Positions 3,958 through 9,894 of a stretch of 45,585 nt of DNA are shown here, piece after piece; the stretch's first letter is position 1; each line of letters starts with the position of its first letter. The DNA is from Alphaproteobacteria bacterium (GTDB taxonomy: Bacteria; Pseudomonadota; Alphaproteobacteria; DSM-16000; Inquilinaceae): the NCBI GenBank assembly GCA_009909005.1, contig JAAAOG010000022.1:1-45585 (forward strand), in the 5' to 3' direction. The notes below the pieces were generated by a model, which was given only the letters and a program-made list of their open reading frames with translations, was not told the DNA's origin and made no database searches. The translations under genes and the position numbers were made by a program.

Positions 3958-4011
3958 CGCATAAATTCGTAACACTGCAACGAATATATGCGCATAATCG
4001 ATTTCTCGATT
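3958..4011. repeat. Two adjacent inverted repeats upstream of the XRE regulator promoter
   Basis: The arms CGCATAAATTCG (3958-3969) and CGAATATATGCG (3981-3992) are inverted with 11 of 12 matches and an 11-nt loop. Four bases further on, AATCGA-TTTC-TCGATT (3996-4011) is a perfect 6-bp inverted repeat. Both lie just upstream of the -35 box of the candidate promoter for the XRE gene and could be operator or activator sites. The surrounding sequence is distinctly AT-rich compared with the window. Confidence 0.5.
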
Positions 4012-4027
4012 TTCCACTTCCCGGGTA

Positions 4028-4056
4028 TTGTCCGAAAGCTTAAGGGTTAATAAAAT
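4028..4056 (+). promoter_or_regulatory. Candidate sigma-70 promoter for the XRE regulator
   Basis: TTGTCC (4028-4033), a 17-bp spacer and TAAAAT (4051-4056) match -35 and -10 hexamers at 4/6 and 5/6. Transcription would begin near 4063, giving a leader of about 110 nt before the ATG at 4175. The remainder of the 409-bp gap (3766-4174) contains no supportable gene. Confidence 0.45.
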
Positions 4057-4174
4057 CCCTTCGGTCGGGTCGGATACGCAGCGCGGCACGGGGTTGCAAA
4101 CCAGGGGACGACAGACGAGCGTCGGCAATGTTCGCCTCCTAAAGATCGTTCCTTAATCGGGTTGGAAAACAATA

Positions 4175-4813
4175 ATGCCCAAGGGTAATAATACTGCAAC
4201 AGACCTCGAGGCTTTTGGCATTCTGCTTCGGCGGTATCGCGTGATGAACGGCCTGACACAGGCCGATTTCTCAGACCTTCTCGGCGTCAGCCAGGCCACG
4301 CTGTCGCGTTGGGAAAATGGCAGCCAGGCGCCCGACGTCAAGATGCGCCGGAAAGTGCATGACCTGGTCTTCCGGAAACAGCCGAAACAGGATAATATCA
4401 TCAATAATTTCGTCCGCTTCGCACGTCAGCCACGAATGCTGATGAATCGGGACTTTATTTTTCTTGCCGTTTCGCCGACGCTTTCCGAATATGTTGGGCG
4501 AACACAAAATGAACTCGTCGGCAGCTCACATCGTGAGAGGTTGTCCGAACAGGCAAAGCGCTTCTTTCCGCGCCTCATCGACGCCGGATTTTTCAAAGGC
4601 GAGGTCGCCTTCGGCCAGTTCGCGGCACATTTTCAAGGCTATGATGGGCGCGACTTCAAGTCGATAAAACAGATCTATCCGTTCTTTCTCTCGGATGGCT
4701 CGATCGTCGCACTGGTCGAAATTCAGTTGATCGATGACGAGACTTTCAAAGCCTGCCAGCATTCGCCGGACACCGTCGAAATGATCCGCGCGTTCGAGGA
4801 CACGCTCGTCTGA
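4175..4813 (+). CDS. XRE-family transcriptional regulator with a C-terminal PAS-like sensor domain
   Basis: Residues ~10-70 form a classic XRE helix-turn-helix: LRRYRVMNGLTQADFSDLLG, then VSQATLSRWENGSQAPD. The C-terminal ~130 residues (FVRFARQPRMLMNRDFIFLAVS, then IKQIYPFFLSDGSIVALVEI) look like a single PAS-type domain, with a starting 'nrdFiFlavSptlseyvGrt' pattern. It would be a one-component regulator whose DNA binding responds to a small ligand or redox state (inference). The Shine-Dalgarno is weak (TTGGAAAAC). Codon usage and the 5' region are clearly more AT-rich than the neighbours, which suggests acquisition or weak expression. There is no obvious target gene next to it other than the cupin gene 165 bp downstream. 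Confidence 0.8.
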   Translation: MPKGNNTATDLEAFGILLRRYRVMNGLTQADFSDLLGVSQATLSRWENGSQAPDVKMRRKVHDLVFRKQPKQDNIINNFVRFARQPRMLMNRDFIFLAVSPTLSEYVGRTQNELVGSSHRERLSEQAKRFFPRLIDAGFFKGEVAFGQFAAHFQGYDGRDFKSIKQIYPFFLSDGSIVALVEIQLIDDETFKACQHSPDTVEMIRAFEDTLV

Positions 4814-5394: not shown

Positions 5395-5841
5395 TCAGCG
5401 GCGGCGCCCGCCGACCAGCGTGCGAATCGAGTGTTCGACACCCTTGTGCAGCACGGCGTCGAACAGCGCCTTGCCGAACATCGCGCCGAGCGTCGCCGCG
5501 CCCGCCGCGATCGGCAGCTCCGCGCCGAGACCCGCGAAGCCGTTTTTCCCCCGCTGCCCGTTTCCGGAAGCGGCGGCCCCACTCCCGGGGTCGGGACGCG
5601 CCGCGACGGCGGCGTCGAGCATGCCGGCCCCTGCCAGCCGGTCGAGCACCGCCCTGGCTGACAACCGCCCCGGATCGTAATGCACGATGATGCTGTCGGC
5701 CCGGGCATTGACCTCGACCCGACCGACCCCGGCCAGGGCACCGGCCTCGGCGGCCGCCTGCTCGGCGCGATGCGGGCAGCGGGCTATCCAGGATGTGCGG
5801 ATCCGCACGCGACCGGGAACCTGGTGAACGTAAACCGGCAT
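5395..5841 (-). CDS. HMA-like (HMA2-type) domain protein with C-terminal membrane segment; last gene of the ferrosome-like operon
   Basis: The 148-residue protein starts with a heavy-metal-associated-like ferredoxin fold: YVHQVPGRVRIRTS (strand 1), a helix, then GRVEVNARADSIIVHYDP. The usual CxxC metal ligand is absent and replaced by PGRVRIR. A low-complexity Gly/Ala linker follows, then a hydrophobic segment with small-residue spacing (PIAAGAATLGAMFGKALFDAVL) that could be a membrane helix. The start is the ATG at 5841, with GGAG nine bases upstream; a TTG five codons earlier is less likely. It lies 65 bp downstream of the P-type ATPase gene on the same strand and is most simply its partner in metal-organelle or metal-transport function. 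Confidence 0.75.
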   Translation of the reverse strand: MPVYVHQVPGRVRIRTSWIARCPHRAEQAAAEAGALAGVGRVEVNARADSIIVHYDPGRLSARAVLDRLAGAGMLDAAVAARPDPGSGAAASGNGQRGKNGFAGLGAELPIAAGAATLGAMFGKALFDAVLHKGVEHSIRTLVGGRRR

Positions 5842-5906
5842 GGCTGACGTCTCCAACAGTCACGGGACAACAGGTTCACGCGGCACAGGTCCGGCGATTC
5901 GCCGCG

Positions 5907-8087
5907 TCACGACGGCCGGACCGGCGCACCGGCCCCCGCCAGAGCCCGGCCCAGGAGGGCAATGGTCGTGCCATTGTGCAGCACGGATGATACCACAGGC
6001 GGCAACCAACCAAAGGAGGCACCCGCCAGAATCGCCGTATTGACGCCGACTGCCGTGGCGAAGCTCTGCCGGATCAGCCCCATGGTGCCGCGTGCCAGGG
6101 CGAGCGCGTCGGCCAGCCCGTCCAGCCGGTCGTCAAGCAGCACGATATCGGCCGAGGCGCGCGCGATGTCCGCCGCGCCCGGCATGGCGATGCCGAGATC
6201 GGCCGACATCAGCGCCGGCCCGTCATTCACCCCGTCGCCGACAAACGCGACGCGGCCGCGGTCCCGCAGGCGCCGGATGATGGCCGCCTTGGCCTCAGGA
6301 TCGGCCTCCCACTCCACCGCGTCGAGGTCGAGACCGCCGGCGATCCTGAGCGCGGTTTCGCGCCGGTCACCGGTGACCATCGCCAATCGCCGTATCCCGA
6401 GCGATCGCAGCCGGGCCAGCACCGCGCCGGCTTCGGCGCGCGGCCGGTCGCGCAACGCGATCACGCCCAGCGGCCGCCCGTCAAGGGCGACGTGCAGCAG
6501 CGTTTTGCCTTCCGCGATCAGCCCGTCGAGAAGCGGCTCATGCGGCTGGAACGAGACATTCTCATGGTCGACAAGGTAATGCCGGCTGCCGATTTGCAGC
6601 AAACCATCGGCCATGTGCGCCTGAAGGCCGTGGCCGATGACGAAGTCGACCTCTTCATGGCCGATATGGCCGACGCCCTCGGCGCGGGCCAAAGCCACGA
6701 CCGCCGCGGCGACGGGATGCGTCGCGTGCTCGGCAATGGACGCGATCGCCGCCAGGAACCGCTCGCGCGGCCAGTCGGCCGGGGTGAAGGTGAGGATATC
6801 GGTCGCAGCCAGATCGCCATGGGTCAGGGTGCCGGTCTTGTCGAACACCACGGTATCGATCCCGGCCAGCCGTTCCAGCGCCTCGCCGCCCTTGATCAGA
6901 ATGCCCCGGCTGGTGGCCTGGTACAGCGTCGACTTCACCGCCACCGCCGGCGCCAGCCGCGTCGCGCAGGAATAGTCGACGAGGAAGAGGGATTCCAGGC
7001 GGCGCGTGTCGCGGGTCAGGGCGAAGACCGCGGCTCCGGTGCCGAGGCTCAGCCAGACGCGGCGGTCCGCCAGCTGTTCCGCGAGGCGCTGAGTCTGGCC
7101 GCGCCGGCCCAGGGCCTCGCGGATGAACCGGGCGATCCGCGCCGTCGTGGTCGAATCGCCGACCCGGTCGGCCCGCACGACCAGCCGGCCCTCCTCCAGT
7201 ACCGTGCCGGAGAGCACGGGCGCGCCGGCCTCCTTCGGGATGGGCAGGCTCTCGCCGGTCACCGAGGCCTGGTTGACCGTGGCAGCGCCGTCCAGGACCG
7301 TGCCGTCGATCGGGATCGCCTGGCCTGCGCCGACGTGCACGCGCTCGCCCTCGACCAGCGTGGCGAACGGGACCCGGACCACCTCGCCACCCCGTTCGAC
7401 CATGGCGCTTTCCGGGTTGGGTTGCATCAGGCCGGCGATCAGCACATCGGAGCGGTGGCCGGTCGAAGCCTCGATATAGCCGGACAGCTCCAGCAGAAAC
7501 TGCGCGATGTTGGCGGTCATGTGCTCGCCGCGCAGCGTCGCCAGCCCGACCGACAGGGCATCGAGAACCGGAACCTTGATGCCGCGGCGGACCAGCGTAT
7601 CGGCGCCGTGGCCCAGGGTTGGCGCGATACCGGCCAGCGTCACCGCCGGCCGGGGAAGCAATGGCGTGGCCAGCGCCGCCAGCCCGACCAGAATCATGCG
7701 CACCGGCGAGGGCGGCGCCTCCTCCCCGGCCGCCGGCTCCGGCTGCCCGTCGTCGCCTGCCGGCGCGGTGCCGGCCACTCCGTCCGCGTGCCCGGCCCCG
7801 GTGGGCTCGAACCGGGCGGGCTCGAAACCGGCGAGCGTACCCATCACGCGGCGACCGGTCCCGGGGCCGCCGTCATGCTCGACGATGACGCACTGTGCCT
7901 TGGCATTGATCCGCACGCCACGGACGCCTGGGAGGACGGAAAGGGCGGCGGTCAGGGCGCCTGCATCGACGCGACAAAGGTCGAGCCCGGCTGGCCGCAG
8001 GCGCAGCCGGTACCGCGTTGCGTGCAGGATCGCCGGGCCCTGGCACGTCGCGGCCGCGGCGTCCGCAGGAAGCACCTCGCCCATCAT
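5907..8087 (-). CDS. P1B-type metal-transporting ATPase with Ser-Cys-Ala metal site (P1B-6-like, ferrosome FezB candidate)
   Basis: This is a 726-residue integral-membrane ion pump. The order of domains is: an HMA-like N-terminal domain without CxxC (residues ~22-75, beginning RYRLRLR), a Gly/Pro/Ala-rich linker, membrane helices (~130-215), actuator domain with TGES (277-280), the membrane metal-site motif SCA (373-375, in DYSCATRLAP) where Cu and Zn pumps have CPC, the phosphorylation motif DKTGT (Asp416), the HP dipeptide (457-458), GDGVND (617-622) and two C-terminal helices. All catalytic motifs are intact. As I recall, SCA is the signature of the P1B-6 subgroup that includes FezB of ferrosomes and iron is the expected substrate; this is family knowledge plus inference. 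Its start has no clear Shine-Dalgarno, but it is only 9 bp from the upstream gene, consistent with translational coupling. Confidence 0.85.
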   Translation of the reverse strand: MMGEVLPADAAAATCQGPAILHATRYRLRLRPAGLDLCRVDAGALTAALSVLPGVRGVRINAKAQCVIVEHDGGPGTGRRVMGTLAGFEPARFEPTGAGHADGVAGTAPAGDDGQPEPAAGEEAPPSPVRMILVGLAALATPLLPRPAVTLAGIAPTLGHGADTLVRRGIKVPVLDALSVGLATLRGEHMTANIAQFLLELSGYIEASTGHRSDVLIAGLMQPNPESAMVERGGEVVRVPFATLVEGERVHVGAGQAIPIDGTVLDGAATVNQASVTGESLPIPKEAGAPVLSGTVLEEGRLVVRADRVGDSTTTARIARFIREALGRRGQTQRLAEQLADRRVWLSLGTGAAVFALTRDTRRLESLFLVDYSCATRLAPAVAVKSTLYQATSRGILIKGGEALERLAGIDTVVFDKTGTLTHGDLAATDILTFTPADWPRERFLAAIASIAEHATHPVAAAVVALARAEGVGHIGHEEVDFVIGHGLQAHMADGLLQIGSRHYLVDHENVSFQPHEPLLDGLIAEGKTLLHVALDGRPLGVIALRDRPRAEAGAVLARLRSLGIRRLAMVTGDRRETALRIAGGLDLDAVEWEADPEAKAAIIRRLRDRGRVAFVGDGVNDGPALMSADLGIAMPGAADIARASADIVLLDDRLDGLADALALARGTMGLIRQSFATAVGVNTAILAGASFGWLPPVVSSVLHNGTTIALLGRALAGAGAPVRPS

Positions 8088-8096
8088 CGCGGCCGG

Positions 8097-8651
8097 TCAG
8101 ATGCCGCTGCCGGGCGGCCCGTCCTCGCCATCGGAGTCCGGGGGCGGTGTCGTGGCGGCCTGGTGCAACTCCGCCTCGGCATCGCGGAAACGTTCCTTCA
8201 TCTCTTCGACGCCGCCCTGCAGGGTGGACCAGAGCGAGACGACCGAACGGATCGCCGTGCGCTGCACGGATTCGTTACTCAGCAGATAGGCCGCGGCTGC
8301 CCCCACCAGCGCGCCCATCAGCAAATCCTGCTGATGATGGCCCTGCGGCCCCGCATGCGCGTTTCCATGATCCGCATGATGCCCCTCCTGCCCATGGCGG
8401 GGACCATGGCCGTGACCGTGATGGCCATGCCCACCGTGGTCATGGTGGCCGCCCCGGTCGTGCCCATAGCCGGGGCCGCCATGGCCGGGATTGCCATGGC
8501 CGGGGCCGGCCCAGGGCGGAGCCAGCCAGGGCGGCGGATAGCTCCACCAGGGCGGCGGCGTCGTCCACCAGGTCGGCGGCGCGTCGCCTTCGGAGGCGGC
8601 GGGATGCGGCCCTCGGGGGCCGCCGTCTCGGTGATCGGAACCGCAGCTCAT
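8097..8651 (-). CDS. His/Trp/Pro-rich membrane protein of the ferrosome-like operon
   Basis: The 184-residue product is highly modular. It opens with a short polar segment, then a Trp-Pro block (WWTTPPPWWSYPPPWLAPPW), then ~60 residues of His-Gly repeats (HDHGGHGHHGHGHG) that must be able to bind metal ions. A hydrophobic Gly/Ala helix (LLMGALVGAAAAYLLSN) follows, then an amphipathic, charged helix (VEEMKERFRDAEAELHQA) and an acidic tail. This order fits a membrane-anchored metal-buffering or membrane-shaping protein. The ATG at 8651 has GAGG nine bases upstream and follows the preceding gene's stop by 11 bp; it is 9 bp from the ATPase gene. No enzymatic motif is present. Confidence 0.78.
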   Translation of the reverse strand: MSCGSDHRDGGPRGPHPAASEGDAPPTWWTTPPPWWSYPPPWLAPPWAGPGHGNPGHGGPGYGHDRGGHHDHGGHGHHGHGHGPRHGQEGHHADHGNAHAGPQGHHQQDLLMGALVGAAAAYLLSNESVQRTAIRSVVSLWSTLQGGVEEMKERFRDAEAELHQAATTPPPDSDGEDGPPGSGI

Positions 8652-8662
8652 GACGGCGCGCC

Positions 8663-9034
8663 TCAACCTGTCGTGTCGGGGGACCGGGCGGGCGTCTCCG
8701 GCTGCTCCGGGCCCAGCGCATGCAAGGTCAGGCCGCCCGCCACCAGCATGGCGGTCAGCCTGAGCAGGCCGTTGTTGCCCGCCAGCGAGGCGGCGACCGC
8801 CCCGGCACCGGTGGCCAGGGCGGCCCGGCTGCCGGCCCGAAGGACGGACCGGACCGCCGCCTCCGGCGATGTCGCACCGCTGCGGGCGCCCTCATAGGCG
8901 CCGGGCAGCGCGGAGACGCTGCCGACCACGGCACCGAGCGCGCCCAGGCGGATGGCCTCCGCAACCACGGCTTCGGTATGGCCGGCACTGCCGTGACGAC
9001 GGGGCCTCTGGTCCGACGACGGAGAATGTGACAT
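8663..9034 (-). CDS. Small Gly/Ala-rich membrane protein of the ferrosome-like operon
   Basis: This 123-residue protein has a charged, His-containing N terminus, then at least two hydrophobic Gly/Ala stretches with GxxxG-like spacing (RLGALGAVVGSVSALPGAYEG, here residues ~29-50, and LTAMLVAGGLTLHAL near the C terminus). A further stretch (ALATGAGAVAASLAG) may form a third helix or hairpin. Such glycine zippers favour tight helix packing in membranes and are common in organelle- and magnetosome-type proteins. It has no catalytic residues. It is the third gene of the minus-strand operon, 60 bp after the previous gene and 11 bp before the next. Confidence 0.72.
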   Translation of the reverse strand: MSHSPSSDQRPRRHGSAGHTEAVVAEAIRLGALGAVVGSVSALPGAYEGARSGATSPEAAVRSVLRAGSRAALATGAGAVAASLAGNNGLLRLTAMLVAGGLTLHALGPEQPETPARSPDTTG

Positions 9035-9094
9035 GGCCGCAGCCTCCTCTACGCATTCGAGTACAGATAGTGTCGACGTGGGAACAGGACCCGC

Positions 9095-9322
9095 TCAGCT
9101 TTCCGGGGCGTCGGCGCGTGGCGCGCCCGCTGACGCGGCGGCATGGCCGGCACCCCCGGAGCGGGCCCGCATGGCCAGAACGAGGCCGGCACCGAGCGCC
9201 GCGCCCAGCCAGAACGGACGCTTGCCGAGATCGGGCATGCGCAGCAGCGTGCCGTGGTCAAGCCGGCCGGTGATCAGGCTCTGCATCAGGCCGTCGAGAG
9301 ACGGGCCGCGGTGTTCAGACAT
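9095..9322 (-). CDS. Single-pass small membrane protein of the ferrosome-like operon
   Basis: A 75-residue protein with a soluble N-terminal half (DGLMQSLITGRLDHGTLLRM), one membrane helix (PFWLGAALGAGLVLAM) with a GxxxG pattern, and an Ala/Gly-rich tail. The ATG at 9322 has a strong Shine-Dalgarno (GGAGGAA), so I place the start there rather than at the upstream in-frame codon at 9349. It occupies the second position of the operon. I recognise no named family; its size and helix resemble small accessory proteins of metal-storage compartments. Confidence 0.7.
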   Translation of the reverse strand: MSEHRGPSLDGLMQSLITGRLDHGTLLRMPDLGKRPFWLGAALGAGLVLAMRARSGGAGHAAASAGAPRADAPES

Positions 9323-9401
9323 GGTTCCTCCGGACTTTCTTCCTGCCATCCTCCGCCATGGGTCCGGCGGGCGGGCGGGACGGTCTGGGTGAGCGGGTTG
9401 G

Positions 9402-9797
9402 TCACCGCGGCTCCGGCGCCAGGAGGGTCTCCAGCGCCGCCGCCGCGTTGGCCGGGTCGCCCCGGATCAGCTGCTCCCACAGGGCCGGACGGAGAACGGC
9501 CGGATCGTAGCTGATGACCACGCTTCGGGCCGGGAGGTTGATCTCCGTGCCGCGGATGCCGGCCAACCCCGCCAGCTGCGTGCGAAACGCCTCCGCCGGA
9601 CGGTGCCCCGGGATACCCGCCAAGGCAGCGTCGAGGCCTCGCGGATCGATCCGGAGGCGCAGGCGCCCGGGCAGATGATGGACGATCCGGCAATGGCGCC
9701 GGGCCTGCAGCAGAATGGCCGCCAGGCTGTGCTGCGGTTCCGATCGTGATTGCCGTTGCGGTTCGACTTGGGGCGCGCCGGCAGGCACTGAAGACAT
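9402..9797 (-). CDS. HMA-like domain protein; first gene of the ferrosome-like operon
   Basis: A 131-residue protein with a polar, Gln/Ser-rich N terminus followed by an HMA-like domain: CRIVHHLPGRLRLRID (strand 1 with the PGRLRLR motif), then GIRGTEINLPARSVVISYDP (strands 2-3). The classical CxxC is missing. There is no membrane segment. Its domain is the counterpart of that in the last gene of the operon, although sequence identity is low. The start could be the ATG at 9797 or the in-frame GTG at 9827; neither has a strong Shine-Dalgarno, and I prefer the ATG. It is the promoter-proximal gene. Confidence 0.68.
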   Translation of the reverse strand: MSSVPAGAPQVEPQRQSRSEPQHSLAAILLQARRHCRIVHHLPGRLRLRIDPRGLDAALAGIPGHRPAEAFRTQLAGLAGIRGTEINLPARSVVISYDPAVLRPALWEQLIRGDPANAAAALETLLAPEPR

Positions 9798-9857: not shown

Positions 9858-9894
9858 GCGAATGATACGCAATTTCATGTTTGCTGCAATGCAA
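9858..9894 (-). promoter_or_regulatory. Candidate promoter with Fur-like palindrome for the ferrosome-like operon
   Basis: On the minus strand, TTGCAG lies 16 bp upstream of TATCAT, a plausible -35/-10 pair in a locally AT-rich stretch. The -10 is embedded in a 13-bp interrupted palindrome, GCGnATnATnCGC (9858-9870), whose AATGAT core resembles iron-regulated Fur-type operators. A repressor bound there would block the promoter. The site lies 31 bp upstream of the alternative GTG start and 61 bp upstream of the ATG. Confidence 0.35.

Follow-up and report, generated by a model that had tools for sequence, protein, structure and literature searches.

Positions 1–45,585 of contig JAAAOG010000022.1 of an alphaproteobacterium from the family Inquilinaceae (assembly GCA_009909005.1), hereafter referred to as the window, very probably contain a complete six-gene fez operon of the proteobacterial type. 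Judging from its sequence, this operon is expected to build ferrosomes, which are lipid-bounded organelles for iron storage. A sequence-only reading of the window had suggested this identity, and the suggestion is now supported by three lines of evidence, namely the placement of the ATPase in the SCA clade, the five matching partner genes, and the enrichment of Fur boxes at the gammaproteobacterial copies. Moreover, sequence comparisons and predicted structures provide good support for homology between the family of the third gene (g3) and the magnetosome protein MamC across the helical core. The operon comprises six consecutive open reading frames (ORFs) at 5395–9797 on the minus strand, separated by gaps of 79, 60, 11, 9, and 65 bp. 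The compact layout noted earlier (gaps of 9–79 bp) is accurate, none of these genes is interrupted by stops or frameshifts, and the locus is operon-like. Codon-position GC content is coding-like in all operon genes scored; the 75-aa g2 fell under the length filter.

Phylogenetic Placement of the ATPase

The gene g5 (5907..8087, minus strand) encodes a 726-aa FezB-type P1B ATPase with an N-terminal HMA2-like domain that lacks CxxC. The protein matches TIGR01525 (E = 4.5e-134), as well as the E1-E2_ATPase and heavy-metal P1B models, and contains the motifs TGES, DKTGT (at residue 416), and GDGVNDGP. The SCA metal-site triplet (residues 373–375; 6963..6971, minus strand) is located within DYSCA (residues 371–375), as had been read from the sequence, and C374 is invariant in the first ATPase alignment. 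Neither a CPC motif nor an N-terminal CxxC is present. The placement of this protein in a P1B phylogeny had been named beforehand as a test. In the maximum-likelihood tree, g5 is located inside the SCA (P1B-6) clade with a support of 100/100, together with the ATPases from syntenic operons of Shewanella, Vibrio, Azospirillum, Magnetospirillum, and genome G610. Its sister group consists of the ATPases of G610, G604, and G469 (100/99). The CPC-type ATPases of the same genome branch far from g5, and a Rhodococcus pump is likewise separate. The substrate of P1B-6 pumps is listed as Fe(II) (PMC7558416). The ATPase of genome G339 (L016), considered as a relative, has a non-SCA site (DYGTG replaces the metal-site triplet) and was placed outside the SCA clade; its gene adjoins two others, one HMA2-like and one EcsC-like.

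Gene Content and Synteny

When plasmids and genomes were searched, relatives of g5 with matching neighbors turned up in Cereibacter, Azospirillum, Vibrio, Arcobacter, and genome G017. In addition, scanning genomes with a stretch specific to FezB identified 80 loci, which belong to Shewanella, Vibrio, Photobacterium, Ferrimonas, Kluyvera, Hafnia, Magnetospirillum, Aromatoleum, Competibacter, and other genera. The gene set and order are common to about 100 loci, including those of named Shewanella, Vibrio, Ferrimonas, Photobacterium, Kluyvera, and Magnetospirillum. Among the loci of the genome scan uncut by a contig end, nearly all have the order g1, a gene for an 'FWKGA' protein, g3, g4, and the ATPase gene, with a second HMA2 gene nearby. 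In almost every fez locus, the counterpart of g1 occupies the first or second position; g6 is downstream of the ATPase gene as in G610 and Magnetospira, and the closed Shewanella genome G797 has an operon of exactly six genes. Given that dozens of other genomes have the same gene order, the arrangement in the window is not a product of chance.

Profiles built from the relatives, with the window sequences left out, recovered the ATPase (E = 6e-235), g1 (1.1e-25), g4 (1.9e-24), g6 (2e-21), and g3 (1.4e-10). For g2 (9095..9322, minus strand), which encodes a 75-aa Gly/Ala-rich protein, the best match in a phmmer search was the position-equivalent protein of locus L084 (E = 0.001), followed, among operon proteins, by those of L091, L096, and L094; all four are FWKGA proteins encoded at the position of g2. 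The FWKGA profile found no match to g2, and the link is based on this single-sequence search; g2 is probably, on weak sequence evidence, a shortened form of the gammaproteobacterial FWKGA-type protein. For each small protein, the six-gene operons found in genera such as Shewanella thus contain a counterpart, which is firm for g1, g3, g4, and g6 and weak for g2. Neither of the two outcomes named in advance as refuting the fez reading was observed.

The first gene of the operon, g1 (9402..9797, minus strand), encodes a 131-aa HMA2-like protein with an HHxPGRxRxR motif, and g6 (5395..5841, minus strand) encodes a 148-aa HMA2-like protein with a C-terminal hydrophobic segment. Both match HMA_2 weakly and below the cut-off (E = 1.7e-4 and 4.3e-6, respectively), and CxxC is absent from every protein of the operon, in agreement with the two HMA-like proteins without CxxC listed in the sequence-only reading. 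The His-rich protein of that list is g4 (8097..8651, minus strand), a 184-aa YtxH-like protein for which the alignment and the His count (21 His) indicate a His/Pro-rich N-terminal segment, a GALVGAAAAYLLSN segment, and a EEMKERFRDAEAE tail. The list also included two Gly/Ala-rich small membrane proteins. The composition holds for both g2 and g3 (33–34% Gly plus Ala), whereas in a simple hydropathy scan clear hydrophobic segments were found only in g3 (123 aa) and g2 stayed under the threshold. On all other points the earlier description is accurate. The five small proteins had no match in PADLOC, and a defense system is therefore not indicated.

Grant et al. reportedly described the ferrosome fez operon of Shewanella putrefaciens in 2022. 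Operons of the Shewanella/Vibrio type likewise have six genes, which encode two HMA2-like proteins, an FWKGA/YtxH-like protein, a MamC-like protein, a YtxH-like protein, and an SCA ATPase, and the order from g1 to the ATPase gene is the same as in the window. However, the second HMA2 gene is divergent and upstream in those operons, whereas g6 of the window is downstream on the same strand. Furthermore, g2 of the window has been reduced to 75 aa and lacks the His/Pro-rich head, and the His-rich segment is found on g4 instead of on the FWKGA protein as in gammaproteobacteria. The fez-like operon of G610 (L157), which has the ATPase nearest to g5 (52% identity), contains g1, a MamC-like gene, a YtxH-like gene with a long N-terminal segment, the ATPase gene, and g6 in the same order and on the same strand. 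It differs in that no separate g2 was seen and in the composition of this N-terminal segment, which is rich in Pro, Gly, and Tyr instead of His. The ferrosome operons of C. difficile and D. magneticus, compared here from the literature alone, share the core FezB P1B-6 ATPase but have smaller or different accessory genes, which include FezX/FezA. The DUF4405-like cytochrome FezC of ferrosome operons (PMC10979944) has no counterpart in the window operon.

Two other fez operons have additional features. On an Arcobacter plasmid (L020), a DUF2202 (ferritin-like) gene at 3964–4647 is located between the HMA2 and small membrane genes. In Cereibacter azotoformans (L017), the fez-like operon is on the conjugative plasmid pORIO2 amid TonB receptors, FeoA, and a sigma/FecR pair, and its ATPase has ACP in place of SCA.

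Possible Iron Regulation

Fur-box-like sites (at least 14 of 19 bases) are present upstream of 24 of the 59 fez loci in the scan set, compared to 3.0% of 2360 control windows taken from the same loci. All but two of these 59 loci are gammaproteobacterial, and because many of the species are related, the count does not represent independent events. In C. difficile, ferrosomes depend on FezA and FezB, both of which Fur represses (PMC12574912). The leader of the window operon has one TGA-N9-TCA match (9863..9877, minus strand), a pattern compatible with a RirA/IRO-type iron-regulator box; it may be a chance occurrence, as about one such match is expected per 20 leaders of equal length. The Cereibacter copy of the operon adjoins FeoA and TonB receptors, which favors the fez assignment.

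Relationship between g3 and MamC

The 123-aa product of g3 (8663..9034, minus strand) is a helical membrane protein with a Gly-zipper. When searched alone against the NCBIfam model of MamC (NF038051), it scored 15.4 bits (E = 0.017), and the best fez relative scored 40.4 bits. Since these scores are far under the curated cut-off of 100 bits, g3 is related to MamC but is not a member of MamC proper. When the same model was searched over 317 genomes of one order, true MamC was found above the cut-off in 31 genomes. Below the cut-off were a few MamC fragments and then eight genomes with E-values of 9e-10 to 1.4e-4. In seven of these (G601, G612, G610, G606, G604, G469, and G608), the match is at most about 1.4 kb from the FezB gene, indicating that the matched gene is the fez g3. 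In the eighth (G602, C1 2646654–2646908; E = 1.4e-8), the MamC-like gene is far from the FezB gene at 1334171.

The relationship was also found in the reverse direction. Among 824 ORFs from MamC loci, a fez g3 profile from the first, almost wholly gammaproteobacterial part of the scan matched MamC in 30 of 30 cases and nothing else (best E = 6e-13). An alphaproteobacterial g3 profile likewise matched MamC exclusively (best E = 4.5e-15). Conversely, a MamC profile had 79 matches at E < 1 among 7073 ORFs from fez loci, and all 79 were g3. Of 25 g3 proteins searched singly against 18,950 models from NCBIfam, 20 matched MamC, and no other model was matched by more than one of them. The alignment of the g3 and MamC families by hhalign covered 86 columns with a probability of 98.3% (E = 1.4e-14), compared to 0.8% for a control alignment of the YtxH family with MamC. 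The real proteins had median scores of 28 and 37 bits; fully shuffled MamC sequences reached at most 13 bits and locally shuffled ones at most 21.

Structure predictions are in line with these results. The AlphaFold2 model of the window g3 has helices at residues 16–52, 57–84, and 89–106 (predicted local distance difference test, pLDDT, of 78), and that of MamC has helices at 13–37, 43–69, and 75–122 (pLDDT of 65). When the two models are compared as in the hhalign alignment, with an offset of 14 residues, both loops coincide, such that the two families share a predicted three-helix layout with the same boundaries. Because of the low confidence of the MamC model, this agreement is supportive but is not proof. 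No credible match to g3 was found among solved structures.

In the g3/MamC tree, MamC forms one clade (100/99) among the fez g3 proteins. This is a single midpoint-rooted tree with many long branches, and the exact position of MamC is weakly supported. That g3 and MamC derive from one ancestor, a membrane-protein family common to both organelles from which MamC was recruited out of a ferrosome-type operon, is the scenario somewhat favored here, and the direction of descent, with MamC arising from within fez g3, is a guess. The window g3 is situated in a fez operon, and no mam genes are present in the ORF list of the window. The literature searched, with two primary ferrosome papers outside reach, contained no mention of a link between g3 and MamC; one study used MamC as a green fluorescent protein label and mentioned ferrosomes separately (PMC12713370).

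In the order searched, at least four genomes (G503, G521, G534, and G548) combine a FezB-type ATPase with a full-scoring MamC, and a single cell may therefore contain the two organelles. In addition, a metagenome-assembled genome of Magnetovibrio (L053; G569, C71) has a second g3/MamC-like gene, adjacent to a second HMA2 gene, on the opposite strand, about 5 kb from its fez operon.

Proposed Function and Alternative Explanations

In Rhodopseudomonas palustris, six fez genes make ferrosomes, and the operon of strain CGA009 is RPA2333–2338 (PMC12016538); rpa2333–2338 are among the metal-ion-transport genes that change with light (PMC6879726). Following the fez literature, FezB would pump cytoplasmic Fe(II) into a small vesicle bounded by lipid, in which the iron would precipitate with phosphate as an iron-phosphate solid, and this store could sustain the cell when iron is limiting or during anaerobic shifts. 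For the other components, it is proposed here that the HMA2-like proteins may act as iron handlers or sensors at the pump that do without cysteine ligands, and that the His/Pro-rich segment of g4 may buffer metal. Based on its relationship to MamC, g3 may shape the vesicle membrane or contact the mineral. Alternatively, the operon may encode a detoxification system that exports iron, or some other transition metal, through the cell membrane, with the small proteins as pump accessories and no organelle. The parts are indeed membrane proteins plus a P-type pump, from which a vesicle cannot be proven by sequence, and older work classified P1B-6 pumps from sequence only (PMC4932525). Nevertheless, the reported formation of ferrosomes by the six-gene operon of R. 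palustris, the requirement of FezA and FezB for ferrosomes in C. difficile, and the grouping of g3 with an organelle membrane protein make simple export quite improbable. Also unlikely is that the resemblance between g3 and MamC reflects convergence of short Gly/Ala-rich helical proteins, which would affect the MamC claim alone and leave the fez assignment intact. Both proteins are small and Gly/Ala-rich, and the window g3 by itself reaches MamC only at the modest E-value given above. Moreover, one of 2500 shuffles of MamC in 10-residue blocks still reached 21 bits, indicating that part of the score is due to local composition. However, convergence does not readily account for the specificity of the searches in both directions and across the NCBIfam models, the contrast between the hhalign result and its control, or the coincidence of helix boundaries under the sequence alignment.

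Several observations weigh against the assignment of the window locus as a fez operon. Its leader has no clear Fur box (best 12 of 19 bases), iron genes are absent from its direct neighbors, the homology of g2 is weak, and the proven operons of R. palustris CGA009 and S. putrefaciens were represented in the comparisons by named Shewanella species and G797. Furthermore, the ATPase was found in none of the 12 other genomes of the same family at the threshold used, such that the operon is sporadic and without conservation at the lineage level. FezB-type ATPases are present in 36 of 317 genomes in the order of G398, and class-wide searches with two different FezB queries found few carriers. Gain by transfer and repeated loss could each explain this sporadic occurrence. 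The absence from related genomes, together with a fragmented assembly (230 contigs, 3% contamination), might also suggest that the contig is an assembly contaminant and the operon foreign to this organism. This is highly improbable, as PleD on the same contig has 70–76% identity to most genomes of the same family and at most 60% outside the family, which indicates that the contig belongs to the lineage.

Two genes past the 3' end of the fez operon, an XRE-type helix-turn-helix gene with a PAS-like remainder (4175–4813, plus strand) has a third-position GC content of 0.65, compared to about 0.85–0.9 in its neighbors, and was perhaps acquired recently.

Implications

The presence of a ferrosome operon in an Inquilinaceae lineage is useful to know and expected in kind; the more interesting result is the relation of the g3 family to MamC. 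If true, this link would provide a sequence-level bridge between the membranes of ferrosomes and magnetosomes, iron organelles that had seemed separate, and would suggest an origin for one magnetosome gene. If MamC and g3 do share this origin, what MamC does at the mineral surface leads to the expectation that g3 contacts or shapes the iron-phosphate core of the ferrosome. The link would also make the role of an uncharacterized ferrosome protein directly testable.

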